Shown here: piece after piece, positions 18,400-43,543 of the stretch | Layout of the letters: each line of letters starts with the position of its first letter | Numbering within the stretch: position 1 is the stretch's first letter | IMG/VR virus record: IMGVR_UViG_3300030012_003138 | Span: 1 to 53,838 of that record | Source: a virus | Reading direction: 5' to 3' (one strand) | Length of the DNA stretch: 53,838 nt | The notes under the pieces: model-generated | What the model was told of the DNA's origin: nothing | Database searches by the model: none | Seen by the model: only the letters and a program-made list of their open reading frames with translations | Position numbers and translations under genes: made by a program

Positions 18400-21300
18400 G
18401 TGACAGGAAAACTTACATCTAATTCGTTAGAATTTAATATATTTGATTCAACTCCTACGGAGACACCTATAAAATTTTCTCAATGGTCAAACGAATTTGG
18501 CACTGGTATAACAGGGGAAGAGGATAAAATAATTGGTTACAGTAATTACTTAAGAGAGTTTGAATTAGATCAAGGAAGTTTAGATAACAAAAAAGAAGCT
18601 TTAATACATAAGGGAGCTTTAAAAGCTATCGCAAAGATAAACCCAGAGTACGAATTAAGATCAGATGTAGGTACTATTGATACGGATGCAGCTCTTTTGT
18701 ATGATGCGTTTGGTCAAGAAGCACGAGATAACTTTTTAGACTCTATAAATAATGGGGCAGATAGAAATGATTTTACGGATGAAGTTAACGATGCTAAACG
18801 TCACTTAGTTGAACACGACATTTTACCTTTAGCTTCTCTTAAAACAACAAACAGTGAAGGGAATTCAACATATGAAGTTATAGGTAGTTCAGGTATATTG
18901 GACTCTAAAAAGGCAATCAATAACGCTATATCAAAAGGAGCGTTGCGTCACAGAGATATGTGGCAAGTAGGGATTGCTATGAAGCCTATACACAAAGGCG
19001 TAAATGGTTTTCAAGCGATACGAGATAATCAAATACGATCTGAGTTAGCGGAACTTTCTGATAGTGAGGAAGATAAAAACCTTTATGATGATATAGTTTC
19101 TGATAGTAAAAAGTATTTTAATAACCCTTCTAAAGATAAAGACTCCTCTGCCCTGATTACTAAAGCTCGGACTTTATTAGCTAGAGGATTTTCTCGTGAC
19201 AAAGACATCAAGGAGGATGTCTCAAGGAACAGGTTTCAGGATGCAGATATTATAAATAGTTTAGAGCAAATAGCTTCTTTTGAATCGTATCAAAGAGGGG
19301 AAATCCCTTTCATTGAAAACAAAGATAAGCTTGCTGATAATATTAAAGTAACTAAAAACGGAGCTGTTATACCTCACATTGGTCTTGTATTAGATAAATC
19401 AAAATTTGATTCTGCTATTGAATTAAAAAAAGATTTGAGTAAAGCCCAAGTCCGTTCATTAAAGAATTACAGGAAAACTTTTTTTACACAACAGTTCCCC
19501 GCATACGATGATTTATTTAAAGACTCTACAGTAGAGAACAAATGGGCGAAAGCTTTGATGGAGGGTAAGCAAAATAATAAATCTAATGGAGAAATATTAG
19601 ATGAGTTTCTACAGAACCCTAAAAACTACAGCAGTTTTAAAAACAAACTAGGTGCTATAAAGGACTCAATAGCTGATTCATTCACAGGGTTAGCTTTAGT
19701 TATACCCGCCCTTTTTGAAAATCAAGGCGCTATTGATTATCTGGTAGCTCAAGAAGAGGATAGGATGAATAGACGGGAAGTTGCAAAAGTATTTGGTAAA
19801 GACTTTGGTTTTGTAATGGATGTATCTACAGCTATCGCTCCTATGGTTACTGATATTTCAGCAACTATTTTATTAAGCTCTGGTACTTTAGGGTTTGGTG
19901 GGGCTGGTTACTTAGCCGTAAAACAAGGTACAAAACTCACTACAAAGGGACTTATTAAAAGCCTTGTAGCGAGTCCTTTACGTAGGAACGCAAGAGAGTC
20001 AACACTAACGCAAGCAGAAAGACTGATCAAGCAAGGTATTATAAAGGGGTCTCCTGATGTAGAAACTGTTACCGAAGCTATCAGCGCATATAATAAATTA
20101 CTTACAAAAGAAGTAACAAAGACCGTAACAAAGAAAGTAACTACTAAAGAAGGAGCTGAAGAGCTTGTTAAAAAAGAAGTTAAAGATGTAACTAGATCTA
20201 ATTTAGTTGCGGGAGTACAGACATCTGCTTTGTTTTTAACGGCTGCAAATAGGTCGGCAGGAGCTACTTATACGACAGTATATTCTAACCTCGAAGGTAC
20301 TCATGCAGAAAAACATGATGCTGCTATGGGAGCTGCTTTAATGGCGGGTATGGCTACAGGTTTGATTACAGCAGGGTTTAGTGCTGTTGGCGCAGGTGGT
20401 TTCGATGATGCTTTCTTGAGGGGTATGACTTTTAGACAGAAGAAAACTATCTTAGAGAATATGCGGAGATCTAAGATAGCGAATGAAAAAACATATGGAG
20501 AACAGTTAAAGAAAATTATATCCCAAAGGATTAAAGAAATCACTCCAAAAACTTTTAGTCAAACATACCAAAGATTTTTAAGAAGTGGAACTGAAGAATT
20601 TTTTGAAGAGGCTGTTGATGATTTTGTAAATGGTTTTATAACTGATGCTGCTTTAGATCAAGATACTCCGATGATTGAAAAGATATCATCTGCTATATAT
20701 TCAGGAGCTATAGGAGGTGTTATAGGTCAAGGTGCTGCGGGAGTTCGTGCGCTTGCCGATAAGAAGAATCTTTTTGCTAGTGGTGGTATTGAAAATTTTC
20801 GTAGAGCAGAAGAAAATGAAATAATTAAAAGGTTAGAAGACACAGGATCTCCTGAAACAGCTAGATTAGTTGCGGATCGTGAGCGGAGAACAGCACTCCG
20901 ATTAGAGTTACGTAAACCAGCGGGTGACACATCAATGGATTTCACTTCTGTGTTTTCTCCTTTAGACCAAGAGGGTGATACAAAAAAGACTCCAGATACT
21001 ACTGAAACTACTGATACCCCCACACAACAGACAGATCCTAGAAACTTCCAAACAGAACAGTCCGAGGGAAGTGTTGCTCCTGAATCACTAGATGTCATTG
21101 ATGATTATTTAGAAAAGAAAATTTCAAGAGAAGATGCCAATAAACAATTTGAAGAAATTAGAAAAAAGAAAGAAGGCACTCCAACAAAGGTTGAAACTAA
21201 AGATGATTCTCTTGATGCTGATGAAACTATATTAGATGAGACTTCTCAATCACAGTTACAAGTACTTAAAAGTATAGAAGATCTAGATTCTTTAACGGAG

Positions 21301-24300
21301 ATAGAAGCTGAACAATTTGATACTTTAAAAGAACAGTTAAAAGATGCTGCAATAGTAGCTCAAACATTTGGAGTTCCTATGCGTATTGTGCCAGAGGAAC
21401 TAGTTAATGAGAACACAAGGGCATTTGAATTTAAGTACTCCAAAGTTGGTAATGATGTAGAGGCAACTATACAAATAGACCCCAAACAACTTTATTCTAT
21501 TGTAAAAGGTTTAAATAAAAATAGTGCGAAAGGACTCATACGTGCTGTAATCTCAGAGGAAATAATACACGCTGCTACCTACGCAGAATTTACACCACAA
21601 GAAATATCAGAGCTGTTTAATGATTTATCTCCAGAAGATGTAGCAAGTATTCAAAGAGATTATTATATAAACGAGGTCGGTGATGTTGAGCAATCTAGTA
21701 TAAGGTTGAATGATCCTGAACAAGCTGAAAGTGAACAACGTGTTATTGTTCGAGAGTTTCTTAGAATGGAAGTTCAAAAAAGTCTTAGGGGGACTACCAC
21801 TGAATCTGAAATAAGATTCTATAAAACTAATCCAAGTTTGTTTGCGAGTTTGTTAAGGTATATGAGAAACTTCATACGCAAGTTAACAAACCTTTTAAAA
21901 AGAGATAAGGATAATGCAAGACTTCATATAGCCACCAACAGGATTGTTAATACTTATAACACCATGAGGTATGGTTATCGTTTATTTGATATACCCGCCT
22001 TTGATCCAGACAATCCATTAGAATCAGTCAATGTATTAAGAGCGCATCTAGAAGCCACTGAAACAGATCAAGAACTACCTCCTGATATGGCTACTTCTGT
22101 GGAAGTGTCACAGTCCCAAGTTTCTGGTGAAGCTGAAACAGATACCCTTTTACTAAAGCATGGTAATCTGGCAGGTATGTTAACACTTCCTCTTATGACT
22201 ACGGGAGAGTACAGGGGGAAATACCGAAAACTAAAAAAGTGGTTGAATGGTTTAAAAGGCTCACAAGATCCACGGCTACAAAGACTACATCAGCAATCAA
22301 TAGCAATTAGAAACGCTGCATTTAAAGAAATGCAACGCTATAAAAAACTATTAGACTATTATGTAGCAAAAGAATACCCAGATGGAGAAGTTCCAGTTCA
22401 TTTGTTTAGGGCTATTACTGGAGATGGTACAGGTTTACAACTGCCTACCAGCGTTAAAAAGAAAATCAAAAGAGAGCTAGGTAAAAAAGAAAAACAGATA
22501 TATGCAGAATTAAATGAACTAAAGGTAGGCACACAAGAACACGCAGATAAAAGAAAAGAACTAGACGAATTAGATAATCTACGAGATCAGGCATATGAAT
22601 TAGCTTTCCAAGCCCAGAAAATGGAGCTTGGTAGGTTACGTAATGAAGCTATAGAACAGCTTGGTGGGTTTGAAGCTGACGGAGTAACCCCTAAAAAGGA
22701 GATAGCAAAACACTTATTAGCTCTACGTAAAAAGACAGATGAGTTTTCAAAAGCAATAAGAGACTCTTACCCAAATAGTGAAGGTGTTGCCGATTCTTTA
22801 GCAGCTACTATTGACGCTAACTTAGAAGTTTATATTACAAGATCATATAAACTTTTTTCAGAAGCGGGATTTGCTGAACGTATGATGGAATCAGATGCCG
22901 ATTATTATGTAGAAAGGCGTAGCGCAGCAGCAGAATATTTTGAAAAACAGTATGTAAATGAAAGAGCTAGACAGATTTACTTACAGAGGAGATATAAGTT
23001 TTTAAGGACAGATGAATCAGAAAACCTATCTGAAGGAATCATAGCCAAGGAAGCAGGGATCAAAGGAGATACGATAAATGGTGAGACAGTTTATGAAGTA
23101 TTCTCTATGGAGGATGCTAGAAAGTTAGCAAAAGCTGAACTTAATCTAGATAAAGAAAAAGGAGCTGACTTATCTAATCCAATCGAAGCTGAGATGAAAG
23201 CATTCTTGGAACAATATGTACCCAAAGATGTTGACGCTTCCTTACTGGTAAAGGACAAAGAGAATGCTAAACCAATTAAAACAGTTCTAACAAATAATTT
23301 AAAGAAACGTAGAAAGATACCTTTAGTCCTACGTAACTTCATGGGAGAAGAACAAGATGCTACAGGGTATGATGCTATAATGAAAACTTATATGCACGTA
23401 GCTATCATGGCATCAAAACAATCTTTCCTACGGAACTTGGTTGAGTTTGGTTCTAAGCAAGAAAATAAATGGTTCGTAACTGCCGACGAAGCAAAGACTT
23501 TAAATGACAAATTAAAAGATCAAAAAGACTCAGAGGGTAAAAGGTACACTAAAATAACAAACAACGCTGATCCAAGATTTGATCCGTTTGTTATAAGTGG
23601 TACAAGAAACAGCAGATACTACGTCCCAGAAGATTTAAAAACAGCACTACAGTCTATATTAAAAGGGTTGAGTTTAGATAAAGCAACTGATGACGCTACA
23701 ATAATAGCAGAGAACATAGCTAAAACAGCAGGTTGGCTTACAGGTTTATCGATGGGAGCTAAAACATTAGGTTCTGTAGGTTTCTACATAAGAAACGCCC
23801 TCAGTAATATGTTATACTTTGCCCCCTCCCAAGGGATAATAGCTCCTGTTGGGTTAACGAGTGGGTTAATAAAAGAAGTATGGCGTAAAAGAGGTATATA
23901 TCTTGATGGCGTATTTCAACCAGAAGCTATAAACGCATACTATTTGAAACTAGATGTTTTAAATATAATTGAAGACGAGATAAGACCAAAACTTTTAGAG
24001 GAGCTTTTCAGAGGTGAGATAACTCCAAACAAAATGATGGATGATATGCGTAAAACTGTTGACGATATCGTAGCACATCCAGAAGGAGGAGCAGACTTTT
24101 TAGATAAAGTAAATGGAAAAGTAAGTGAGTTACCTAAACCCATAAAGAAGTTGTATGATAAGTTACGTACACTATCAGCAGCAATGGATAGTTTTTATAA
24201 GATATACTATTTTGAATATGAACTTAAATCACTTAAAAAAGCTAAAGAAGATTCAATAAAAGCAGGTCGAAATGATAAATATGCTCAAATGGACGAAATG

Positions 24301-25533
24301 CAACTTGAGCAGGAAGCAGCAGATAAAGTTCTGAGGACTTCACAATCTTATAGTAGATCAGCTCCTTTGATTGGGGGATTGTCTAAACCCCCTTATGGAA
24401 CCATGTTCGCACCATTCGTTCGATTCAAAGGCGAGTTAGTACGTATATTTGTTAACACTCCATTGCTTGCGATTGAAGAAATGAGTGATAGTAATCCTGT
24501 AATCAAAAGAAGAGGCATGGCTAGAATGGGCGGTCTTACCTTTACCACAGTAGGGTTATCTGCGTTACTCCCAATTATGCTCAGACAAGTGCTTGATGTG
24601 GAAGATGACGAGGATCAAGCTTTGAGAAGAACGCTCCCATCTTACCTCAAAAACCATACTTTCTTTTATTTCAAAGGGAAGGATGGGGACTTGTATTCAG
24701 TTGATATGACATATATCAACCCTTACTCATTGCTGGTAGATCCCTTTTTACGTACCATTGAACAAGGTTTATCAGGAGAAAGTCCAGCTAAGATGGGCGC
24801 TACTCTTGTAAAGAGTATGATATTTGATGAGTATTTAGATGAACAGATATTCGCAGGTGCTTTGAGTAGCTTCTTAAAAAACAGGAACCCACAGAATAAT
24901 AAAAAGATATGGGAAGAAAGAGACTCAACGGAACTCGCTTTTATGAAGGGAGCTATGTTCTTATTTGATGAAGCTGTTAACCCACCTATGCTGAAAGCAG
25001 CTATTGAGGCAGCCAAGATAAGTAAAGTTAACTCCATTGAAGAGGCTTTAAAACGGATAGGTAGAGAATTCTTACCCGCAAAACCACACAAGATTGATTT
25101 GTTTAGGAGTATGCGGAGATATTTATTCGATGCACGTAGGGAATCACAAAACATATCTCTTAGAAAGAATGAAGTGTTAAAAGATAGTCCTATGACTGAT
25201 CTTGAGATCAAAAAACTTATATTAAATGAAGTGGATCACAGAGTTCGTATAGATAAAGAAGTAGCGCACACACTTAAAAACATACAATCTCTTGGCGGTA
25301 TGACAGATAAAGAAGTGCGAGATATTGTTTTTGGAGCGCAGTTTGGTAAGCGGAGATATAAGTATCTAATGCAGGGACTTACAGAAACCCCAAAAGAAAC
25401 TCACGTAGCCTTACGGAAAAAGATAAAGGATAAATATAATTCTACGCAAGACCAAGAGTTTTTACGTAGATTAAATATAATAGACCAAGTTTATAAAAGC
25501 GTCCCAAGATTCTATAGTCACGAAGATATTTAA
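18400..25533 (+). CDS. Giant internal virion / ejection protein (2377 aa)
   Basis: A GTG-started 2377-residue protein. Hydrophobic, possibly membrane-inserting segments occur near residues 428-445 (TGLALVIPALF), 468-512 (ending SSGTLGFGGAGYLAV), 641-670 (MGAALMAGMATGLITAGF) and 2043-2065. Near residue 1052 there is a zincin-like helix, VISEEIIHAATYAE (EExxH). The region from about 1200 on is long helical. The C-terminal 350 residues contain RRTLPSYLKNHTFFYFKG and VDMTYINPYSLLVDPFLR, resembling the conserved end of very large phage virion proteins (LPD38-like in my reading). The likely job is to form a channel or carry an enzyme into the cell during DNA ejection. Its last four bases overlap the convergent (-) unit. 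Confidence 0.7.
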   Translation: MTGKLTSNSLEFNIFDSTPTETPIKFSQWSNEFGTGITGEEDKIIGYSNYLREFELDQGSLDNKKEALIHKGALKAIAKINPEYELRSDVGTIDTDAALLYDAFGQEARDNFLDSINNGADRNDFTDEVNDAKRHLVEHDILPLASLKTTNSEGNSTYEVIGSSGILDSKKAINNAISKGALRHRDMWQVGIAMKPIHKGVNGFQAIRDNQIRSELAELSDSEEDKNLYDDIVSDSKKYFNNPSKDKDSSALITKARTLLARGFSRDKDIKEDVSRNRFQDADIINSLEQIASFESYQRGEIPFIENKDKLADNIKVTKNGAVIPHIGLVLDKSKFDSAIELKKDLSKAQVRSLKNYRKTFFTQQFPAYDDLFKDSTVENKWAKALMEGKQNNKSNGEILDEFLQNPKNYSSFKNKLGAIKDSIADSFTGLALVIPALFENQGAIDYLVAQEEDRMNRREVAKVFGKDFGFVMDVSTAIAPMVTDISATILLSSGTLGFGGAGYLAVKQGTKLTTKGLIKSLVASPLRRNARESTLTQAERLIKQGIIKGSPDVETVTEAISAYNKLLTKEVTKTVTKKVTTKEGAEELVKKEVKDVTRSNLVAGVQTSALFLTAANRSAGATYTTVYSNLEGTHAEKHDAAMGAALMAGMATGLITAGFSAVGAGGFDDAFLRGMTFRQKKTILENMRRSKIANEKTYGEQLKKIISQRIKEITPKTFSQTYQRFLRSGTEEFFEEAVDDFVNGFITDAALDQDTPMIEKISSAIYSGAIGGVIGQGAAGVRALADKKNLFASGGIENFRRAEENEIIKRLEDTGSPETARLVADRERRTALRLELRKPAGDTSMDFTSVFSPLDQEGDTKKTPDTTETTDTPTQQTDPRNFQTEQSEGSVAPESLDVIDDYLEKKISREDANKQFEEIRKKKEGTPTKVETKDDSLDADETILDETSQSQLQVLKSIEDLDSLTEIEAEQFDTLKEQLKDAAIVAQTFGVPMRIVPEELVNENTRAFEFKYSKVGNDVEATIQIDPKQLYSIVKGLNKNSAKGLIRAVISEEIIHAATYAEFTPQEISELFNDLSPEDVASIQRDYYINEVGDVEQSSIRLNDPEQAESEQRVIVREFLRMEVQKSLRGTTTESEIRFYKTNPSLFASLLRYMRNFIRKLTNLLKRDKDNARLHIATNRIVNTYNTMRYGYRLFDIPAFDPDNPLESVNVLRAHLEATETDQELPPDMATSVEVSQSQVSGEAETDTLLLKHGNLAGMLTLPLMTTGEYRGKYRKLKKWLNGLKGSQDPRLQRLHQQSIAIRNAAFKEMQRYKKLLDYYVAKEYPDGEVPVHLFRAITGDGTGLQLPTSVKKKIKRELGKKEKQIYAELNELKVGTQEHADKRKELDELDNLRDQAYELAFQAQKMELGRLRNEAIEQLGGFEADGVTPKKEIAKHLLALRKKTDEFSKAIRDSYPNSEGVADSLAATIDANLEVYITRSYKLFSEAGFAERMMESDADYYVERRSAAAEYFEKQYVNERARQIYLQRRYKFLRTDESENLSEGIIAKEAGIKGDTINGETVYEVFSMEDARKLAKAELNLDKEKGADLSNPIEAEMKAFLEQYVPKDVDASLLVKDKENAKPIKTVLTNNLKKRRKIPLVLRNFMGEEQDATGYDAIMKTYMHVAIMASKQSFLRNLVEFGSKQENKWFVTADEAKTLNDKLKDQKDSEGKRYTKITNNADPRFDPFVISGTRNSRYYVPEDLKTALQSILKGLSLDKATDDATIIAENIAKTAGWLTGLSMGAKTLGSVGFYIRNALSNMLYFAPSQGIIAPVGLTSGLIKEVWRKRGIYLDGVFQPEAINAYYLKLDVLNIIEDEIRPKLLEELFRGEITPNKMMDDMRKTVDDIVAHPEGGADFLDKVNGKVSELPKPIKKLYDKLRTLSAAMDSFYKIYYFEYELKSLKKAKEDSIKAGRNDKYAQMDEMQLEQEAADKVLRTSQSYSRSAPLIGGLSKPPYGTMFAPFVRFKGELVRIFVNTPLLAIEEMSDSNPVIKRRGMARMGGLTFTTVGLSALLPIMLRQVLDVEDDEDQALRRTLPSYLKNHTFFYFKGKDGDLYSVDMTYINPYSLLVDPFLRTIEQGLSGESPAKMGATLVKSMIFDEYLDEQIFAGALSSFLKNRNPQNNKKIWEERDSTELAFMKGAMFLFDEAVNPPMLKAAIEAAKISKVNSIEEALKRIGREFLPAKPHKIDLFRSMRRYLFDARRESQNISLRKNEVLKDSPMTDLEIKKLILNEVDHRVRIDKEVAHTLKNIQSLGGMTDKEVRDIVFGAQFGKRRYKYLMQGLTETPKETHVALRKKIKDKYNSTQDQEFLRRLNIIDQVYKSVPRFYSHEDI

Positions 25534-28850: not shown

Positions 28851-28887
28851 CCCTCAGATAGAAGCCGTATAAGAAACTATCTGAGGG
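28851..28887 (-). promoter_or_regulatory. Perfect 11-bp hairpin in leader
   Basis: CCCTCAGATAG (28851-28861) and CTATCTGAGGG (28877-28887) are perfect inverted repeats around a 15-base loop, upstream of the first (-) gene. No U-run follows on either strand, so it may be an operator or leader RNA hairpin rather than a terminator. Confidence 0.5.
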
Positions 28888-29022
28888 AGCTGTGTTTCAT
28901 TACTGTTTGAGTAACGGAAACCCATTATATACAGCTCGAAAACATAGTCAAGATATTTTCTTTATTTTTTTTCAATCACTATTCATGTCGCAGGACTCAG
29001 GAATCAAGGTGCAGGGGTGGGT

Positions 29023-29077
29023 TAAATCTCGGATGCCTATTTCTAAATCTCGGATGTCATTTTAAATCTCAGATGCC
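29023..29077 (+). repeat. Three 15-bp iterons
   Basis: TAAATCTCGGATGCC (29023-29037), TAAATCTCGGATGTC (29044-29058) and TAAATCTCAGATGCC (29063-29077) are direct repeats 21 and 19 bases apart, about two helical turns, so bound proteins would lie on one face of the DNA. A weaker GGAATCTAGG follows at 29083. Confidence 0.85.
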
Positions 29078-29225
29078 TTTATGGAATCTAGGCTAAAATT
29101 TGAAAAATCTGAAAAAAATTAAATTTATGAAAATTATTGAAAATAGGAAAAAAATAATATTTTACCTAATATAAGTTAAATACCAATAAAACCAGATTAA
29201 ACTAAATGAAAAAAGTAATTTAAAC

Positions 29226-29341
29226 CATACGGATTAAAAAGAAGCCTTTTAGATAATACAGATTAAAAAGAAACTTTTTAGATCATACAGATTAAAAAGA
29301 AGCCTTTTAGATCATACAGATTAAAAGAATGCCTTTAGACT
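29226..29341 (+). repeat. Four 29-bp tandem repeats
   Basis: Units of consensus CATACAGATTAAAAAGAAGC with CTTTTAGAT begin at 29226, 29255, 29284 and 29313, a strict 29-base period. The first three are almost identical; the fourth is diverged. Each unit contains a small dyad (AAAAG and CTTTT around AAGC), typical of iteron or partition-site repeats. There are no spacers, so it is not a CRISPR array. Confidence 0.9.
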
Positions 29342-29376
29342 AATTTTATTTATTTACTTAATATACAGAAAAGAAC

Positions 29377-29404
29377 TTGAAAAGAGACGGAAAAAGCTTA
29401 AAAT
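29377..29404 (+). promoter_or_regulatory. Promoter candidate for the 29.4-kb module
   Basis: TTGAAA (29377-29382), a 16-base spacer and TAAAAT (29399-29404) differ from the -35 and -10 consensus by one base each. The gene start is 25 bases downstream of the -10 box. It lies directly after the 29-bp repeats, so a repeat-binding protein could control it. Confidence 0.5.
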
Positions 29405-29429
29405 TTAGGCTAAATCTAAATTAAAAAAT

Positions 29430-29816
29430 ATGCAAAATATCATTATTAAATCATTAACGGCTTTCCTTTTTATCTCAATCATTTGGACGGCTTCGGCTCA
29501 CTTCCTTTTTAATCATCTAATTGATTTTAAAACGCTTGGATCTAATCCGCTAAAATTAGCGCTTTTAGTTTTAGCTATTGGAACCTTGTTAGTAATTTAT
29601 TTTCTTTTCTGTTTTCAAATTATCGAAAACACAAAAAGCGAAATAAAAGAACTAAGAAAAGCGGAACAAGAAGAAGCCAGAAAAGCGCATAAAAAATGGA
29701 TAAAATTTATTAAGCAATGCGAAGAAGACCGCTTAATTGATGCTTTTGAAAAACAAGCAGAAGAACAAGCGCTCTATGAGAAATGGAAAAAAGGAAAAAA
29801 ATTATTAAATCACTGA
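29430..29816 (+). CDS. Two-span membrane protein with cytoplasmic coiled coil
   Basis: A 128-residue protein with two membrane helices (about residues 9-29 and 41-65). A strongly charged helical tail follows (SEIKELRKAEQEEARKAHKK, FIKQCEEDRLIDAFEKQAEE) that probably forms a coiled coil in the cytoplasm. It is the first gene of the iteron-adjacent module and is followed by a strong hairpin. No family is recognised. A two-span protein with a charged tail could tether DNA or a replisome to the membrane, or serve superinfection control; both are guesses. Confidence 0.6.
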   Translation: MQNIIIKSLTAFLFISIIWTASAHFLFNHLIDFKTLGSNPLKLALLVLAIGTLLVIYFLFCFQIIENTKSEIKELRKAEQEEARKAHKKWIKFIKQCEEDRLIDAFEKQAEEQALYEKWKKGKKLLNH

Positions 29817-29834
29817 AATTAAAATAATTTGAAT

Positions 29835-29888
29835 CCGTGGCGCTCTTTTCGGAGTGCCACGGCTTCAAGTTTTTATGACTAAAACTTG
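29835..29888 (+). terminator. Tandem hairpins after the two-span gene
   Basis: CCGTGGCGCTC (29835-29845) pairs with GAGTGCCACGG (29852-29862) with one G-U pair. CAAGTTTT (29866-29873) pairs with AAAACTTG (29881-29888). The first stem is unusually GC-rich for this genome. There is only a short T-run (29870-29874), so it may be a terminator or an RNA-stabilising element. Confidence 0.5.
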
Positions 29889-29928
29889 AGTCTAAACTAA
29901 ATAAAAATAACTAAATAAATATAATATT

Positions 29929-31194
29929 ATGAGCCACGGAATTACAATTGAAGATACCGTATTAACTAGAGAAATAGATGAAAGGGCATGGCATTTGCTA
30001 GATAATCAAGTTAGGGAAATTTTCCCAACTTTAGAAAAAGCCAAGGAAGATCCAGAAAGCTATATACTCCATTCAAGAATATTACATGATATTCTTGAGG
30101 GTGATGCTTTTGCACTGGTAAACCCAGACAGATATAAAGAGCTGATCAATAAAGCCGAACTTGAAAACGGTCTGAATATTGAGGATCTAAGAGAATTGAA
30201 TTCGCTTTTTGTTGAGTGTGAGGATAACAAAATCTTAACCACTCAACTAGAAAGCGGAATTCATGCCCCAATCGGAACCCCATCAAAAAGTTATTGCCCG
30301 ATAACGAATGAAGAACTTTTGGAATCAATCGACTCCAATTTACAGGGTTTATATGATTACGATATTATCACAATGGGAACCACCCAAGGACGGAAAAGGT
30401 TTTTCGCTACTCTTAAAATTAACGGAGCGGATGAAAGCACTATAAACGGTGATAGATACAAAAATTATATCAATGTCATGCAATCCTCAAATGGCTCTAT
30501 ATCTGGGCAAGCTCATGACTCCGCCATCCGTGTTGTTTGTGATAACACCATAAAAGCAAGCTTGGCGAATAAAGGCGATCTTTATTTAAAACTCCGTAAA
30601 ACTAAAGGCGCAAAAGGTAGACTTGACCAATTTGGGAAAACTGTTGCTACCTTGATTAGTGGGCGGGATTTATTTCAATCTATGCTAAAACAATTTGCTA
30701 GTGTTGAATGTGATAAATTAAAAGCTGCAAAACTTTTCGCATCTTGGAAAGGTTTGGAAGTAGGGGACGAATTAAGTTCAAGATCATTTAATCAAATTCT
30801 AGCCGTTCAAGAACTAGCCGAAAATGGAAAAGGTCAAAACTCATGTAATACGCTTTATGACTTGTTTAACGGAGTAACAGAATTCTATACAAGTGGAGAC
30901 GGAAGCGGAAGGACTAGAGCGCTTAAACAAAACGCAACGGAAGAAGAGCGCCTCGACAACGAGCGCAAAAAATGGAATAAATTCCATTCTTCAGAATTCG
31001 GAACTGGCGCAGATCAAAAAGTTAAGTTTACTTCTTGGCTTCATAAAGTTCTAAATGATAATGAACTCGAAGCGGAAGCGGAAAAAGGGCGCTTGTTATT
31101 ATCTAATAAAATGGAATTCGACAAGCAAAAAGCTAACAACAAGATCAACAAGGCGCAAGCAGTCGATAACCTAGAAGAAGCTTTAAAAGCCTAA
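29929..31194 (+). CDS. DUF932-like protein
   Basis: A 421-residue protein. The DUF932 signature is visible at about residues 175-210 (YKNYINVMQSSNGSISG, then IRVVCDNTIKASL) and again near 310-325 (LYDLFNGVTEFYTSGDGSGR). DUF932 proteins are common on plasmids and phages; their biochemical role is unsettled. The N-terminal 130 residues seem specific to this protein, and the C-terminus is a charged helix ending NLEEALKA. It is the largest gene of the iteron-adjacent module and sits between two hairpins, so it is probably a transcription unit of its own with a 23-residue peptide. Confidence 0.7.
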   Translation: MSHGITIEDTVLTREIDERAWHLLDNQVREIFPTLEKAKEDPESYILHSRILHDILEGDAFALVNPDRYKELINKAELENGLNIEDLRELNSLFVECEDNKILTTQLESGIHAPIGTPSKSYCPITNEELLESIDSNLQGLYDYDIITMGTTQGRKRFFATLKINGADESTINGDRYKNYINVMQSSNGSISGQAHDSAIRVVCDNTIKASLANKGDLYLKLRKTKGAKGRLDQFGKTVATLISGRDLFQSMLKQFASVECDKLKAAKLFASWKGLEVGDELSSRSFNQILAVQELAENGKGQNSCNTLYDLFNGVTEFYTSGDGSGRTRALKQNATEEERLDNERKKWNKFHSSEFGTGADQKVKFTSWLHKVLNDNELEAEAEKGRLLLSNKMEFDKQKANNKINKAQAVDNLEEALKA

Positions 31195-31197
31195 TCT

Positions 31198-31269
31198 ATG
31201 GAAGCTTGCATTATTTGGGCGCTACTTTGGGCGCTTGCTATGTTTGCCTTGTACATAATAAAAAAATAA
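31198..31269 (+). CDS. 23-aa membrane peptide
   Basis: Three bases after the DUF932-like stop, an ATG opens MEACIIWALLWALAMFALYI and ends IKK: a single membrane helix with a basic end. A strong terminator begins eight bases after its stop, so it lies within the same transcript. Its size makes the call uncertain, but the tight packing and hydrophobicity favour a real peptide. Confidence 0.45.
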   Translation: MEACIIWALLWALAMFALYIIKK

Positions 31270-31276
31270 ACCAATA

Positions 31277-31310
31277 GAGTGGGTGCAAAATTTGCGCCCA
31301 CTCTTCATTT
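31277..31310 (+). terminator. Intrinsic terminator
   Basis: GAGTGGGTGCAAA (31277-31289) and TTTGCGCCCACTC (31291-31303) are inverted repeats with one G-U pair, followed by TTCATTT. The innermost bases must stay open as the loop. It ends the DUF932-like unit. Confidence 0.7.
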
Positions 31311-31321
31311 AAAAAATAACT

Positions 31322-31519
31322 ATGAAAAAAAAATACATTATAAGCCGTTATTATTATCCAGAGGATTTAGAACCGGTTTTCGAATTCGCAACAGAAGACA
31401 AAAAGGAAGCTAAAGAATATTGTTACCCAATTGGGTTTAAACTATGCCCAATTAAAAACGCTTTTTACAGATTCGACTACGAAACTAAATTTATAAAAGA
31501 TGATTCAAATGATTACTAA
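31322..31519 (+). CDS. Hypothetical protein
   Basis: A 65-residue protein rich in Tyr, Lys and Glu (MKKKYIISRYYYPEDLEPVF, FATEDKKEAKEYCYPIGFKL). The pattern of short beta strands and a helix suggests a small folded domain, but no family is recognised. It starts 12 bases after the terminator tail and overlaps the next gene by 20 bases. Confidence 0.5.
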   Translation: MKKKYIISRYYYPEDLEPVFEFATEDKKEAKEYCYPIGFKLCPIKNAFYRFDYETKFIKDDSNDY

Positions 31520-31919
31520 AATTGAAAAAACTAAAATTTCGGAATCTAGTTTTTTACAGACTACCTTTTTAGCTCCTTTTTATTCTCGGATTAATTCAAA
31601 TGGTAAGTTTTTAAACTATCCAGATTTAAAAACTATTGATAAGCAACTCGAACCGCTTGGATTAGAGTTATTACAAATTCCACAAATTAAAACGCTTCAT
31701 AATTCGCCTACAATTGGCGGATGGGTTCAGTTTAGCAAAACTATATTCAACACTAAAAAAGGCATCATATTTGCTGATCATTTGACCGATTGGGCGCAAT
31801 CGGTAGAGCCTTATTTAAGCAAGGATTCAATCGTTCTTGAGACGTGGCAAGCACTAGCCACGGACGGAACCAGAAACACAAACAGAATCCAATTTAATGT
31901 TATATCTAGCGAATTATGA
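31500..31919 (+). CDS. Hypothetical protein
   Basis: A 139-residue protein (Met at 31500 or 31509). Segments such as FLQTTFLAPFYSRINSNGKF, IGGWVQFSKTIFNTKKGIIF and DSIVLETWQALATDGTRNTN suggest a compact alpha/beta fold. I do not recognise it. It overlaps the preceding gene and is fused to a 23-residue frame by ATGA at 31916-31919. Confidence 0.5.
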   Translation: MIQMITKIEKTKISESSFLQTTFLAPFYSRINSNGKFLNYPDLKTIDKQLEPLGLELLQIPQIKTLHNSPTIGGWVQFSKTIFNTKKGIIFADHLTDWAQSVEPYLSKDSIVLETWQALATDGTRNTNRIQFNVISSEL

Positions 31920-31987
31920 AAATAGATAAGTTAAATCCTCATGATGATGAACCAGTGGACATTTACGGAGCTTGTGACGAAGATTAA
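31916..31987 (+). CDS. 23-aa acidic peptide
   Basis: ATG 31916 overlaps the preceding stop (ATGA) and opens MKIDKLNPHDDEPVDIYGAC, ending DED. It is short and acidic and contains one Cys. The coupling suggests translation; nothing indicates a function. It ends five bases before the next start. Confidence 0.4.
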   Translation: MKIDKLNPHDDEPVDIYGACDED

Positions 31988-31992
31988 ACAAA

Positions 31993-32181
31993 ATGAAATA
32001 TTTAAATTCTAAACAGTTTAAAAAACTCAGCTTTGAAAAAGCTGTTTCTTATTCTCAGGAAATGACCAGAGCATTAGTGGAAGATTTCCACCGAAACAAA
32101 AACCACCCGAAAAAAAGAAAGGAGATATTAAAAAAATTATCTGAAATTAAAAAGTTCAATCAAGAAAACCTAGATTCATAG
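31993..32181 (+). CDS. Small basic helical protein
   Basis: A 62-residue Lys-rich protein (FKKLSFEKAVSYSQEMTRAL, KKRKEILKKLSEIKKFNQEN), probably two helices with a basic face. It is the last gene of a four-gene cluster ended by a strong terminator. The basic helices could bind nucleic acid. No family is recognised. Confidence 0.5.
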   Translation: MKYLNSKQFKKLSFEKAVSYSQEMTRALVEDFHRNKNHPKKRKEILKKLSEIKKFNQENLDS

Positions 32182-32204
32182 AAAAGGCTTCATATTATAG
32201 GGAT

Positions 32205-32243
32205 AAGGGCGCAAGGTTCATTAATTTGAGCTTGCGCCCTTTT
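32205..32243 (+). terminator. Intrinsic terminator
   Basis: AAGGGCGCAAG (32205-32215) and CTTGCGCCCTT (32231-32241) form a perfect 11-bp stem with a 15-base loop, followed by a short T-run to 32243. It closes the 31.3-32.2 kb cluster. Confidence 0.75.
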
Positions 32244-32501
32244 AATTGAGTTCTAGCGCCCTGCGCCCTGAGTCTCGAATTCTGGTGGCATATCCGCTTA
32301 AATTGGCAGCATCTCCGATGCGCCAGAATTTCCCAATTATTTGAGCGAAGCGAACACTACTTAATAAATGGATCATGGCACATGATTCATTTTCTATACC
32401 ACCCCACCCGTAGGGTGCTAACTTTTCTCTCAGATTGACCTATATATACGAGGGCTTTAAGAAAAAATTTGACTTATTTTTACCCGCTCATATTAATAAG
32501 A
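32244..32501 (+). other. Non-coding spacer with hairpin and promoter
   Basis: Together with the terminator this makes 320 bases without a gene. It holds GCGCCCTGCGCCC, a hairpin AATTCTGG (32278-32285) against CCAGAATT (32323-32330) with further pairing inside, a GAGCGAAGCGAA word, a small CACCC/GGGTG hairpin near 32405, and a promoter-like pair of boxes at the right end. Its base composition is richer in G+C than most intergenic DNA here, suggesting a different origin. Confidence 0.5.
32469..32497 (+). promoter_or_regulatory. Promoter candidate close to start codon
   Basis: TTGACT (32469-32474), a 17-base spacer and ATTAAT (32492-32497; or TATTAA one base earlier) lie directly before ATG 32502. 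Only four bases separate the -10 box from the start, so the mRNA would be leaderless. The -10 match is imperfect. Confidence 0.4.
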
Positions 32502-32759
32502 ATGGCGAACCTTAAAAAACAAGAATACTACAAAAACAACAAGAAAAAACGGTTAGAATACCAAAAAAAGTACTACGAAAAAAATAAAGAAGAAATAGCA
32601 CGTAAGAGAGAACGAGAGCGAAACGAAGACCCAAGATGGCAAGAAAAACAAAAAGCATACAACAGAGCTTATTATCTACAAAACAAAGAGCGAATAATGG
32701 CTCAAAGAAAGCGTAAGAAAAAAGATGTAGAGAACACAAAGGATACGCTCACAAAATAA
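32502..32759 (+). CDS. Lys/Tyr-rich helical protein
   Basis: An 85-residue protein from ATG 32502; the frame is open to a TTG at 32469, but that lies in the promoter box. It is nearly all helix with repeated K-x-Y-Y-x-x-N-K units (QEYYKNNKKKRLEYQKKYYE, YNRAYYLQNKERIMAQRKRK). Such Y-Y-x-x-N-K-x-x-R repeats occur in many phage and bacterial proteins next to endonucleases and are thought to bind nucleic acid. The function here is unproven. Confidence 0.55.
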   Translation: MANLKKQEYYKNNKKKRLEYQKKYYEKNKEEIARKRERERNEDPRWQEKQKAYNRAYYLQNKERIMAQRKRKKKDVENTKDTLTK

Positions 32760-32835
32760 AGCGGGTTATACAGGTTTAAGCGGGGGTAAAGAATTGAAAA
32801 GCAACAAAACTAATTCCAAACAATATATAATTCTC

Positions 32836-32869
32836 TTAATATAATTTATCATATGATAAACTATATTAA
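32836..32869. promoter_or_regulatory. 34-bp near-perfect palindrome
   Basis: The sequence centres on TTTATCATATGATAAA and extends to TTAATATA on the left and TATATTAA on the right with a single mismatched pair (A-C at 32844 and 32861). It lies in the 159-base gap upstream of the NUMOD4-like gene. A homodimeric DNA-binding protein is the obvious reader; an extruded cruciform is another option. Confidence 0.7.
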
Positions 32870-32918
32870 AGGAAATATATATTAATTGAAATGAAAATAT
32901 TGATTCAAACTCTTTTCT

Positions 32919-33398
32919 ATGTATCATGGTAACATGACCGAATTAATAGAAGATATCGAAAAAAGACCTATCCCTGATACGAAATATGAGATAGATCAGC
33001 ATGGTTTTGTATACAATAAAGGCAGAAGACTCCGTTCGCAGTATAAGAGCGGGCGGTGGTATTGTCGTATATACACAAAAGCAGGTAGGCAACTATCTAT
33101 CGACGTAAAAAAACTAGCTGACTTATTATTTAGTGAAAGCGCCCCTCCTAAATTGACTAGAGAGATTATCGAAGGCCGTATTAATGCTCGCCCCCTTCCA
33201 GAACACCCTAGATATTCCGTTACTGAGTATGGAGCTGTTTATTGCATGGAACCTCCCCGAAGAGGACCGAATGCAGGTAAACTTTATATGGTATCTACTA
33301 AAACTAATGTGTCAGGAAAAAAATATGTTGCTTTATATGATTACGAAGGGTGCAATCGATATGTTCAAGTGCAAGCGTTGGTAGACTCTGTATGGTGA
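32919..33398 (+). CDS. NUMOD4-like DNA-binding protein without HNH domain
   Basis: A 159-residue protein (Met at 32919 or 32934). It appears to hold two diverged copies of one module: residues 22-70 (KYEIDQHGFVYNKGRRLRSQ, RWYCRIYTKAGRQL, VKKLADLLF) and 96-159 (PRYSVTEYGAVYCM, KKYVALYDYEGCNRYVQVQA, LVDSVW). The Y-x-(V/I)-x-x-x-G-x-V-Y start and R-V-H-x-L-V-like end match NUMOD4 modules, which bind DNA in homing endonucleases. No HNH or GIY-YIG nuclease is attached. It may therefore be a regulator or a relic of a homing gene, and the palindrome just upstream could be its site. Confidence 0.55.
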   Translation: MYHGNMTELIEDIEKRPIPDTKYEIDQHGFVYNKGRRLRSQYKSGRWYCRIYTKAGRQLSIDVKKLADLLFSESAPPKLTREIIEGRINARPLPEHPRYSVTEYGAVYCMEPPRRGPNAGKLYMVSTKTNVSGKKYVALYDYEGCNRYVQVQALVDSVW

Positions 33399-33483
33399 TC
33401 CCTGATTCATGATTCCTGACTCAAGGTACATGGATCAGATTCACCCTTGTAGAAAGCTAAATTGGCCTTAAATTTATTGACTA

Positions 33484-35709
33484 ATGTATACTGATCCAGA
33501 TGCCATGCATGAGCTTGACGGTTTAGCTGCTTTTGACAAAGAAGGCAAGCCGATGAAAAGCCGTATTAAAGATGTAAAAAGTGCCTTAAAAATATTTCAA
33601 GGGCTTCGCAAAGCTGATGAGCAATCGTCTGTAAACAGAGCCAGAGTAGACGCAATGTTTGATGGGGCTAATCCCTACAATCAAGCGCAACTGAATGCGA
33701 GTGGTCAGGGTCTTAAAACTAATTTGAATTTCGGAGAGGCTCAACGTCTTTTGGATATATCGCTATCTGCCTACGTAGACCTTTACTCTTCACTAGAAAA
33801 ACTAGTGGAGGTAAAGGGTACGCAGGGAGAGCCTAGCGAGATTACTCAACAGGAGGATATTGTTTCTGAGGAGATAACTCATTTGTTGCGTAGTTGGCCT
33901 GATTTTCATTCTCACTACCTTCGTCTTTGTACGACGTTCATCAAACATGGTACAGGGATCACTTACTTTGATACCCCTGATGATTGGAAGTTTAGAGTAG
34001 GTAGTTTTGCAGATTTTTTGATTCCGAGGCAAACGCCCGCATCTGAGTCGGCTATTGATGTAGCGATTGGTCGTAGGCAGTATCACATACATGAGTTATT
34101 TAATTTCATAAAAAATCCAGAAGCAGCTAGTAAAGTGGGTTGGAATGTTGAAGAGGTAAGGAAAGTTCTTTTGAAACATGTTACTACAAGCGGGCGTAGG
34201 AATCACAAAAACATTTATGATGATTGGGAGTCTTTACAATCTGAGTTAAAAAACAACGACATACATGAGGGGTATCAAAACCCTACGGTATCTGTGTTAC
34301 ATTTTTGGGTACGTGAATTAGATGGTAGTATTTCTCATTACATATCTACTGAAAAAGATTGTGAATATTTTTTATATAAAAAACTTTCCCGCTACGAAAA
34401 GCCAGAGCATGCGTATGTTATGTTTACGTATGGTGTAGGCTCGAATGGAACATATCATTCGGTGCGGGGGTTGGGGCATCGTATCTTTAACCACATTCAG
34501 ACAAGCAACCGATTGCGTTGCCAGATGATTGACGGTGCGATGTTAGGATCGGCAGTTATGATTCAACCCGAAAACCAGAGGGCGTTAGATGAATTAGGGT
34601 TTACGTATTATGGAGCATATGCCGTCCTATCCCCCAACGTTAATATTATTGAGAAGGCAGCACCTAACTTGAGTACTGGTGTGCAGCCAGCACTGAACGA
34701 CATATCAAATCAGTTAGCTTTGAATACTGATACTATAAGTACATATGGGCCTAATCAGAGTTCACCGTACAAGAATCAGATGCAGGTGGTTGCTGACATG
34801 GATGTGCAGACTAGGTTGTCTGGTGCATCCTTAAACTTGTTTTATGCTTCATGGAACAGGTTACTTAAAGAGATTGTTAGGAGGATAGTAAACGGCAAGA
34901 AAGACAAGGAACTTAACGAGTTTTATAGTAGGTGTGCAGACCGAGGGGTACAGGAATCATTTATCAAGACATTGGATTTGGCTAGAACAAAAGCCGTCCG
35001 ATCTATTGGCAATGGCTCGTATGCGAATAGATTGGTTGCCCTTCGGGAGTTACAAGCTATATCAGGTTCGTTTGATGAGGTTGGTCGTAAGAACCTTACT
35101 CGTGATATAGTTTCTACTCGTGTCGGGCATGATTTAGCTGACAGGTATGCTCCTGTGATGGAAGGTGCTCGTCAGACAGTGGATAGTAAAATTGCATATC
35201 TTGAAAACCAACAGTTATCAGGAGGCATTTCTGTTCCTGTGGTTTCGACTGAATTACACGCAGCTCATTTGGCAGAGCATATTCCAGCTTTGACAGGTTT
35301 AATTGAGCAATTAAATACAGGTCAGGCAGATCCTGTACAGGTTTTACCTGCATTACAGGCATTTTATGAGCACATTGCAATGACTGCGGAGCAGTTAGCA
35401 GGTGATCCTATGCAAGAAGGTTTGGTTGGTCAGGCAAAACAAGCCCTTCAATTTGCAGAAGAGATGATAAATAACACCTCAAAACAGGTTCAAAAGATGC
35501 AACGTGAAGCAGCACAAGCAGCGCAAGCGGGCCAAACCCCTCAAGACGGTGGAGATCCTGTGATGAGTACTAAAATGCAAGAGCATCAGATTAAGTTACA
35601 AATGGCCCAACAAAAAGCTGAACTTGACATGCAGTTAAAACAAGCCAAGTTTGAGCAAGAGCAAGCATTGCGTGACGCAAAGATGGCAATGGACTTGCAG
35701 AAACAATAA
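33484..35709 (+). CDS. Portal protein
   Basis: A 741-residue protein that opens the virion-gene block. Features of podovirus-type portals are seen: a helical N-terminal wing (QAQLNASGQGLKTNLNFGEA, then RLLDISLSAYVDLY), a central fold with VLHFWVRELDGSISHYIS, and the crown with GHRIFNHIQTSNRLRCQMID. A long Gln/Ala-rich coiled-coil end follows (KLQMAQQKAELDMQLKQAKF). Twelve copies form the vertex ring through which terminase pumps DNA. The downstream order scaffold, then capsid, supports the call. No Walker motif or protease fusion is present. Confidence 0.85.
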   Translation: MYTDPDAMHELDGLAAFDKEGKPMKSRIKDVKSALKIFQGLRKADEQSSVNRARVDAMFDGANPYNQAQLNASGQGLKTNLNFGEAQRLLDISLSAYVDLYSSLEKLVEVKGTQGEPSEITQQEDIVSEEITHLLRSWPDFHSHYLRLCTTFIKHGTGITYFDTPDDWKFRVGSFADFLIPRQTPASESAIDVAIGRRQYHIHELFNFIKNPEAASKVGWNVEEVRKVLLKHVTTSGRRNHKNIYDDWESLQSELKNNDIHEGYQNPTVSVLHFWVRELDGSISHYISTEKDCEYFLYKKLSRYEKPEHAYVMFTYGVGSNGTYHSVRGLGHRIFNHIQTSNRLRCQMIDGAMLGSAVMIQPENQRALDELGFTYYGAYAVLSPNVNIIEKAAPNLSTGVQPALNDISNQLALNTDTISTYGPNQSSPYKNQMQVVADMDVQTRLSGASLNLFYASWNRLLKEIVRRIVNGKKDKELNEFYSRCADRGVQESFIKTLDLARTKAVRSIGNGSYANRLVALRELQAISGSFDEVGRKNLTRDIVSTRVGHDLADRYAPVMEGARQTVDSKIAYLENQQLSGGISVPVVSTELHAAHLAEHIPALTGLIEQLNTGQADPVQVLPALQAFYEHIAMTAEQLAGDPMQEGLVGQAKQALQFAEEMINNTSKQVQKMQREAAQAAQAGQTPQDGGDPVMSTKMQEHQIKLQMAQQKAELDMQLKQAKFEQEQALRDAKMAMDLQKQ

Positions 35710-42229: not shown

Positions 42230-43543
42230 GTGCCTGTACAGAGAAATCAACCAAGCCCTCAAAGGCAGTCAGTATTAACATTTGTATCTCCAAATGTTCA
42301 AGATTTATTATTTTATGAGACTGTAGATAAACAACGGGTTGGTAAAACACCCCCTGTTTATGGGTCAGCACACCCAAACACTACTAAGTTCCCTAACCAC
42401 AAACTAGTTTATGTTAAACAGTTTGATGCCGAGGGGCAGTTATACCAATACTACTATGCTGCTTCTAGGTCTAGCCAAGATGAATATAACTTTGAATATT
42501 CTCAAGCTAGTTTAGGAAACTCTAAATTTAATACTGTAGTCAGGACTTATGTTATTCCTAGGTCTGATTTTAAAGAAGATGATGCATCTTTAGAGGCTGG
42601 TGATGCTATGCCCACTGAACCTTCTTCAGCTAACTTTACTGATAAAGGGTATATTCTAATGTCCCGCCAACAAAAAAGATTAAGAGATCCAGAATTAGAC
42701 GGGCATTTTATTGTTGAGCAAAGAGTTTATTTTATTAGGGAAGACATTGAAACCCTGAAGTGGGATGAGTTATCGGGTTCTAATTTAAAAACAACAGTTA
42801 GTTATTTTGCGTTGGGAGAGACTCCTACTGGAGCTTCTTCAAATATACAGACTTTAATTTCTGATGCTGATAATTCTTATTGGGGTACTGCTATAGAGTA
42901 TAGAGAAGATTCACCCTCTCAGGGAAACTTAAACAAAGCAGTCGCTTTTTATAAAGAAGGAAGACAGGTATCTTTAGATTGGTTTGAAGTTGTAAAGATA
43001 GAAACAATGGCTGGTACAACTACTGATGGAACAATAAACTCAGCTACTACTTTACTTATTGAAGAACTAAATACCTCAATTAATTTTACATTCCCACCAG
43101 TTTTACAAAGCATTTCATCTGTTGCTTGGGAAAAGCATGATGGTCAAGTTCAACATAATCCAGAGTATCATATGAATCCAGAAGGGTATAGTGGACCTTG
43201 TAGAGCTGTAATTAAAAAAGAATATAGGACAACAGAGTTTGATCTCGACGTTCCTAAAGCTATGCAGCCCCAGTCTTTTGCATTTTCTACTCCTTATATA
43301 AATATAAGAATACCCTCTTGTTTAATTGATGGTCCAGCGTTAGGTAGTGAAATTGGATTCACTACAGGAACTACTGACCCTGTATATAAATATACCGCAT
43401 ATATTAAAACATTACCTAAAACAGATCCACCAAATCTTAAAAAGATAGCTGAAACTGGGCTTAGAGCTAGAGTCATCCAACAAAAATCTAGGGGTGGTTA
43501 TATAAAAGAAACTACTACTGTATTCCCTCCGTCTTTTAATTAA
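42230..43543 (+). CDS. Structural protein, possibly tail
   Basis: A 437-residue protein with a GTG start, beta-rich and aromatic (KLVYVKQFDAEGQLYQYYYA, IVEQRVYFIREDIETLKWDE, EKHDGQVQHNPEYHMNPEGY). It lies eight bases after the preceding gene, and its stop overlaps the giant repetitive gene (TAATG), so the two are coupled. An N-terminal Q-Y-Y-Y-A segment has a counterpart near residue 120 of that protein. Likely part of the tail or its fibres; no named family. Confidence 0.6.
   Translation: MPVQRNQPSPQRQSVLTFVSPNVQDLLFYETVDKQRVGKTPPVYGSAHPNTTKFPNHKLVYVKQFDAEGQLYQYYYAASRSSQDEYNFEYSQASLGNSKFNTVVRTYVIPRSDFKEDDASLEAGDAMPTEPSSANFTDKGYILMSRQQKRLRDPELDGHFIVEQRVYFIREDIETLKWDELSGSNLKTTVSYFALGETPTGASSNIQTLISDADNSYWGTAIEYREDSPSQGNLNKAVAFYKEGRQVSLDWFEVVKIETMAGTTTDGTINSATTLLIEELNTSINFTFPPVLQSISSVAWEKHDGQVQHNPEYHMNPEGYSGPCRAVIKKEYRTTEFDLDVPKAMQPQSFAFSTPYINIRIPSCLIDGPALGSEIGFTTGTTDPVYKYTAYIKTLPKTDPPNLKKIAETGLRARVIQQKSRGGYIKETTTVFPPSFN

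Follow-up and report, generated by a model that had tools for sequence, protein, structure and literature searches.

How did a block of genes that looks out of place come to lie between two conserved gene blocks of a phage genome, and why is it kept there? The question is raised by IMG/VR record IMGVR_UViG_3300030012_003138, a 53,838-base virus record from an uncultured phage with genes for a polymerase, primase, helicase, exonuclease and terminase (the whole stretch is referred to hereafter as the window), in which an acquired module had been proposed to span 28,980–33,440 (hereafter the original prediction). Comparison with related loci makes it likely, in our view, that a cassette encoding a DUF932 protein is the current, recently installed occupant of a fixed and rapidly exchanged slot, where either DUF932 or an ATPase/VWA pair may supply a needed slot function. 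The evidence for the swap is sound; that a common function is being supplied is what we hypothesize.

The cassette sits between a leftward early block and a rightward operon made up of a basic protein gene (KK), a NUMOD4-like gene and a gene at 33,484–35,709 with 63 related loci in IMG/VR. We call the last of these portal from its place and neighbors, because it has no match in Pfam or PHROG (no relatives were found among cultured phages either); the loci L003, L004, L005 and L047 encode versions of this protein that are 91–97% identical to it. With three truncated loci found via DUF932, these four make up seven close relatives, five of which have contigs extending past the right side of the slot. 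Alignment to all seven ends at 28,970–28,982 and restarts, in the five that reach the far side, at 32,440 or 32,441, and we define the cassette by these two breaks as 28,983–32,440 (3.46 kb). The left edge of the original prediction falls within the corrected range of 28,976–28,983, and its right edge moves inward by a kilobase, from 33,440 to 32,440. Between the same points, L003, L004 and L047 carry 5.9, 5.3 and 4.3 kb of other DNA, respectively, whose minus strand encodes a type a DUF932 protein (DUF932a) and GP88, and L005 carries 3.1 kb of other DNA with a type b DUF932 gene (DUF932b) on the plus strand; the relatives' blocks hold other genes, mostly in the opposite orientation to the window's cassette. 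Sharp breakpoints, conserved flanks and an unrelated interior mark the segment as an exchangeable phage module (mosaic block), and an empty slot was never seen, each close relative with a covered slot holding another cassette. The event at 28,983–32,440 is a replacement within an occupied slot and not a plasmid or satellite that has inserted itself. Truly foreign DNA may start slightly further in, just after three 20-bp repeats at 29,023–29,082, since these resemble repeats that L003 and L004 carry at this border.

An integrated plasmid-like or satellite-like element that moves by itself had been among the original proposals, and several features could be read in that way: the plus-strand genes form a self-contained set with hairpins and tandem repeats, short inverted words lie close to either edge, and DUF932 is present on plasmids too. 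Scans with Pfam, PHROGs and PADLOC nevertheless recognized no replication, integrase, transposase, relaxase or packaging gene in the cassette (defense families gave chance-level matches only, and no tRNA or known RNA was found at the borders); the repeats are not ends of its own, as relatives that lack the window's cassette have the right edge word in the same position ahead of portal; and no relative offers an empty site. We regard an element of this kind as highly improbable. Morons, extra genes with their own promoter and terminator (PMC3029335), share foreign composition and terminator-like hairpins with the cassette, yet occur in one genome while a relative lacks them, whereas here several genes are involved and every covered relative slot is filled.

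Composition suggests that the cassette arrived in the recent past. Codon and k-mer scans both put the segment as the most deviant stretch of the window, in line with the original claim that it differs from its surroundings, and composition is not uniform across the borders. Among 3.4-kb stretches, 29,001–32,400 has the top dinucleotide distance (0.208, against a mean of 0.071 and a standard deviation of 0.038) and also the top tetranucleotide distance; a third-order Markov scan delimits the deviant segment as 29,075–32,390, a result that is partly circular as the model was trained on 29,101–32,250. Codon use in the cassette (chi2 174) exceeds that of all 122 equal-sized stretches of other genes (maximum 160), with GCG, CGC and CCG taking 0.22, 0.13 and 0.28 of their boxes versus 0.09, 0.03 and 0.03 elsewhere; the reported oddity of GCG and CGC codons is therefore confirmed. 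The GC-rich words noted earlier are likewise real, but overall G+C is not raised (28–38% per kb), and GAGCGAAGCGAA-like words have to be dropped from the list of foreign features because relatives carry such words too (GAGCGATAGCGA). Together with the sharp breakpoints and the other DNA in close relatives, this foreign signature bears out an acquired module between two phage gene blocks.

The sharpest sign comes from short palindromes, 4-mers above all, which are distributed very unevenly. The cassette contains 20 of the window's 48 copies of GCGC (p = 4e-12; 20 versus 3 expected inside, 28 versus 65 expected in the rest of the window) and 7 of its 10 copies of GAATTC (p = 5e-7), and AATT follows suit (58 versus 38 expected inside, 319 versus 465 expected in the rest). 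CCGG and CGCG are each absent from the other 50 kb of the window, where 65 of each are expected, and from L003, L004, L005 and L047; the sole CCGG of the window lies inside the cassette. GTAC and ACGT occur there once each, versus 11 expected. We infer that the cassette was shaped by a different restriction regime and that too little time has passed since its arrival for it to adapt. Donors of such a kind do exist, since GTAC and ACGT are likewise avoided by several unrelated virus contigs. The nearest k-mer signature to the cassette is that of L094 (0.076), which hints at a host type at most because its DUF932 is only 31% identical. Across the portal family, CCGG and CGCG are wholly absent from backbones in a low-GC clade (the window, L003, L004, L005, L047 and others) and many other members avoid GTAC instead; the pattern of avoidance thus varies from clade to clade and probably from host to host.

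Might the odd composition instead be intrinsic to an old resident cassette whose genes are short, A+T-rich and hairpin-rich? Certain small early regions do have an unusual make-up of their own, DUF932 stands on a long branch, and the relatives' cassettes are somewhat deviant too. These cassettes nonetheless sit much closer to their own flanks (distance 0.06–0.12 versus 0.20 for the window's cassette), and they share the family's site avoidance where the window's cassette does not: cassettes of L003, L004, L005 and L047 have 0–2 copies of GCGC versus 5–7 expected, to be set against the GCGC and AATT counts above. The nearest phage by portal, L005, moreover holds another cassette, and we consider long residence unlikely.

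The DUF932 protein is the slot marker of the cassette. Its identification in the original prediction was right: it matches PF06067 at 74.2 bits (Pfam gathering cut-off 23; E = 1.8e-20), and the fold matches of its AlphaFold2 model (predicted local distance difference test, pLDDT, 89.5) in BFVD include DUF932/TIGR03299 proteins (best E overall 9.5e-16, with modest template-modeling scores of 0.3–0.43). It thus resembles DUF932 proteins (PF06067; TIGR03299 "phage/plasmid-like protein"; phrog_1221) by passing the Pfam cut-off and by a predicted fold like that of viral DUF932, and differs in being longer than the profile at both ends and in falling below the TIGR03299 cut-off (66.8 versus 110.7 bits). 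Identity to the slot DUF932a of the low-GC relatives and of L008, L010 and L064 is 39–46%, and a DUF932 tree groups the protein with the types of L003, L006, L008, L010, L047 and L064 on a long branch (SH-like approximate likelihood ratio test, SH-aLRT, 98). Close relatives were found neither by single-sequence search of IMG/VR or GTDB genomes nor by profile search of GTDB genomes, and the suggested search for the block in plasmids and other phages returned only distant DUF932 homologues (21–31% identity, in plasmids and cultured phages). There was no solved-structure match by sequence or by Foldseek; VIA-align gave a best Z of 5.3 to 2plg and bilin-reductase folds at ~4, which are not interpretable. 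Among the sources consulted, we found no literature on DUF932 function or on a DUF932/MoxR link. The type b protein of L005 clears the PF06067 cut-off (25.3 versus 23 bits), and DUF932 proteins are among its fold matches (E down to 4.7e-17); the similarity of DUF932a to DUF932b in direct profile comparison is weak.

Two further alternatives were raised originally. A contig of another virus joined in during assembly would account for the strong composition change and for the want of any close relative of the cassette. Two misjoins would be required, however, as a single one could not leave both borders correct; the marker gene in the block is that of the slot itself, belongs to the same DUF932a clade and is correctly placed between conserved flanks and between the relatives' breakpoints, and repeats resembling those at the border in L003 and L004 run on into the block, making a chimera very improbable. 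A replication origin or plasmid-type replication module, with DUF932 as initiator acting at the tandem repeats, would suit the 29-bp repeats in the A+T-rich leader before DUF932 and a 16-bp array at the same position in L005. The iterons of the original prediction do exist (four 29-bp and three 20-bp tandem units), but we found nothing positive for replication beyond them: genes for a polymerase, primase, helicase and exonuclease are already present in the phage, such arrays are few or differ in kind in relatives whose cassettes lie on the minus strand, and DUF932 matches no initiator family. Such a module is accordingly very unlikely. In L005, two tandem arrays (9-bp TGTCTCCCA and 16-bp CCTAACACTTTACTAA, at 5889–6120 of that locus) precede the plus-strand DUF932b gene, placed like the 29-bp array of the window.

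We then come to what the slot holds across the family, as surveyed in 42 long contigs, each searched over its whole length. Fifteen carry DUF932a, 8 DUF932b and 17 a DUF2201-VWA protein (PF06067 and PF09967 searches agree with these types); none carries two types, and the only contigs lacking any, L029 and L033, break off within the slot, at 2.6 and 1.9 kb upstream of portal. A MoxR-like ATPase is encoded by 16 of the 42, all of them with DUF2201-VWA; L045, which has DUF2201-VWA without the ATPase, was assigned to the VWA type. Fisher's test for the non-overlap gives p = 7e-10, a figure without phylogenetic correction that relatedness inflates. The portal tree (45 rows, used as a stand-in for a genome tree) implies at least 10 changes of slot type, so the one-marker pattern arose repeatedly: L005, the window's sister there (98% portal identity), has DUF932b, and L036, of the VWA type, groups with L037, L040 and L042, which have DUF932a. 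A marker on the plus strand is confined to the window and L005. GP88 (PF17338) occurs in 13 of the 42 contigs, 12 of them among the 23 with DUF932 and the other being L045, which suggests a GP88–DUF932 link.

The slot ATPase scores 18.3 bits against Pfam AAA_16, below the cut-off of 32.6, matches PHROG 1297 "ATPase" at 6.5e-25 and has invariant Walker-A residues (GxGKT), its MoxR label resting on the DUF2201-VWA neighbor. The known counterpart is the MoxR-type AAA+ ATPase with a VWA/DUF2201 partner (reported as a two-subunit system in phage 0305phi8-36, PMC2147016; PHROGs 1297 and 1314), a system that occupies the same slot in other family members but is absent from the window, and profile comparison of the slot ATPase with DUF932 finds no relation between them. 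DUF932 and the ATPase/DUF2201-VWA pair may be non-homologous substitutes for one phage function, either being enough and both together useless or harmful, although we stop short of calling this probable. We find it plausible that the two share an early function, for example in host takeover or protein remodeling, given that the two-subunit MoxR system of another phage has been described as a metalloprotein chaperonin (PMC2147016).

A course of events can be proposed on this basis. The ancestral cassette would have been lost; it may have been a minus-strand DUF932a/GP88 block, the kind that most close relatives have, or else a plus-strand block resembling the one in the sister L005. The present cassette would have been acquired, in plus orientation, from a phage that belonged to the same extended DUF932a clade and had replicated in a host with a different restriction regime. 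The exchange probably took place during co-infection, through recombination where short sequences are shared at the edges (heptamer tracts, border repeats and promoter leaders), and would have spared the two outward transcription units. Retention of the cassette would likely be due to its DUF932 protein, one slot function being needed. Short boundary sequences have been proposed for phage mosaicism, yet are missing at most boundaries (PMC3029335). Here, tracts of a degenerate heptamer, GNNNCAN, number 115 in the family loci (1.1 Mb) versus ~7 expected, an approximately 15-fold excess, and 58 of 104 lie outside open reading frames (ORFs) of at least 80 codons, though such DNA makes up only 18% of bases. 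It is no more than a suggestion that they serve as recombination footholds. Both edge words of the original prediction are real and belong to such tracts, and as terminal repeats of an element they were rejected: the words are family-wide degenerate heptamer tracts, and the right one sits outside the swapped block, kept before the portal gene in L003, L004, L005 and L047. Units within one tract differ nearly as much as units of different tracts; further tracts in the window lie at 15,249–15,276 and 19,219–19,246, and many loci have them (for example, L026, L031 and L040).

Several points count against a recent replacement that serves a needed function. No donor carrying the window's cassette was found, and the exact placement of its protein on the DUF932 tree is unsure because the branch is long. 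Recombination of the portal gene, if any, would have inflated the number of type changes, and the heptamer tracts, being common in the family, argue only weakly from their nearness to the breakpoints for a part in the exchange. Outside the family, 3 of 39 DUF932 contigs from other phage lineages also carry DUF2201; exclusivity may be a property of the slot and not of a shared function. The slot could be a tolerant hotspot for unrelated accessory genes, the one-marker pattern coming from whole-block replacement, which by itself would suffice to keep the markers apart; the majority of other genes in the slot are indeed unrelated and variable, and two systems can evidently co-occur elsewhere. A neutral site should, on the other hand, often hold no marker, and only L029 and L033 do, with contigs cut near the slot; the markers have also been kept through many replacements, in differing gene contexts and in both orientations. 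We see the hotspot as a genuine possibility on less than even terms, about as likely as a shared function, and as compatible with the recent-swap part of our preferred explanation.

The features of the slot are collected in Table 1. All cassette genes are on the plus strand and spaced out, as had been noted, and the three hairpins picked out originally do fold far better than shuffled sequences, strong stems reaching 0.87 per kb in the segment versus 0.06 per kb elsewhere. Of the proposed membrane peptides, at least one protein with hydrophobic, membrane-like segments is present. The 128- and 139-residue proteins have no close relative in IMG/VR, and the remaining cassette proteins gave weak tblastn matches only, among the fetched loci.

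Table 1. Positions in the window of features in the cassette (28,983–32,440), at its edges and in the flanks.
Feature	Position	Strand	Remark
Hairpin, 11-bp stem, conserved	28,851–28,887		Flank, between left promoter-like site and first leftward gene
Promoter-like site, TTGACT-16-TATAAT (11/12)	28,924–28,951	−	Left slot edge; putatively serves leftward early block
Degenerate heptamer tract GTCGCAG GACTCAG GAATCAA GGTGCAG	28,987–29,014	+	At left breakpoint; left edge word of original prediction
Three 20-bp repeats, TAAATCTCGGATGCCTATTT	29,023–29,082	+	Similar repeats at same border in L003, L004
Tandem 29-bp repeat, 4.1 copies, TTTAGATCATACAGATTAAAAAGAAGCCT	29,219–29,336	+	A+T-rich leader; putative regulatory or origin-like role
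128-residue protein	29,430–29,816	+	Hydrophobic, membrane-like segments (read from the sequence itself)
Strong terminator-like hairpin	29,835–29,862	+	Ahead of DUF932 gene; z −6.7 versus shuffles
DUF932 protein, 421 residues	29,929–31,194	+	Type a slot marker; PF06067 match
Strong hairpin, AGAGTGGGTGCAAAATTTGCGCCCACTCT	31,276–31,304	+	z −7.0 versus shuffles
Short ORF, 65 residues	31,322–31,519	+	No relative found
CCGG	31,373–31,376		Sole copy in the 53.8 kb; inside cassette
ORF, 139 residues	31,500–31,919	+	No relative found
ORF, 62 residues	31,993–32,181	+	No significant relative found
Strong hairpin, then T-rich stretch	32,205–32,241	+	Terminator-like; closes cassette genes; z −5.5 versus shuffles
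Degenerate heptamer tract GGATCAT GGCACAT GATTCAT	32,370–32,390	+	Close to right breakpoint
Conserved leader GGGCTTTAAGAAAAAATTTGACTTATTTTT..TATTA	32,441–32,496	+	Right slot edge, ahead of rightward operon; putative promoter
Conserved basic protein (KK)	32,502–32,759	+	First gene of rightward flank; outside cassette
NUMOD4/HNH-like conserved gene	32,919–33,398	+	Flank, outside cassette; phrog_959, 9e-7
Heptamer tracts	33,395–33,438		Directly before portal gene; kept in L003, L004, L005, L047; right edge word of original prediction; outside cassette

Both flanks are conserved up to the slot. The TTGACT of the left promoter-like site and its surrounding bases are kept in L003, L004, L005 and L047, the TATAAT box being intact in L003, L004 and L047 but not in L005, and the right flank opens with a conserved rightward-reading leader, AAGAAAAAATTTGACTTATTTTT. 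The basic gene that follows is found in 41 family members and the NUMOD4-like gene in 55. The latter, the basic gene and the palindrome all belong to the flank, so the original assignment of the NUMOD4-like protein and the palindrome to the module does not hold. The palindrome is an 80-base A+T-rich near-palindrome between these two genes (32,813–32,892; z −6.5 as RNA). Elsewhere, the window encodes two giant proteins, of 2377 residues at 18,400–25,533 and of 2158 residues at 43,543–50,019, the second of which contains long repeats with periods of 108 and 213 bp (45,792–47,315).

Exchange of phage modules is itself already well known, and the cassette resembles the mosaicism of lambdoid phages and mycobacteriophages (PMC3029335, PMC9836094) in being replaced as a unit between conserved flanks and in a possible role for short shared boundary sequences. 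It differs in that the borders coincide with outward transcription leaders, and in that one fixed slot is repeatedly exchanged among three alternative marker systems, with nearly every covered genome keeping exactly one. It is unusual for one slot to be refilled so many times and yet to have, almost without exception, just one of three systems in it; two of the three represent a widespread protein family for which no function is known, and an ATPase/VWA pair makes up the other. The cassette offers a clean case of recent transfer read from restriction-site avoidance, and the slot pattern yields a testable prediction on the role of DUF932; if the substitution of one system for another is real, the slot would be a natural swap experiment and would provide the first functional lead on DUF932.

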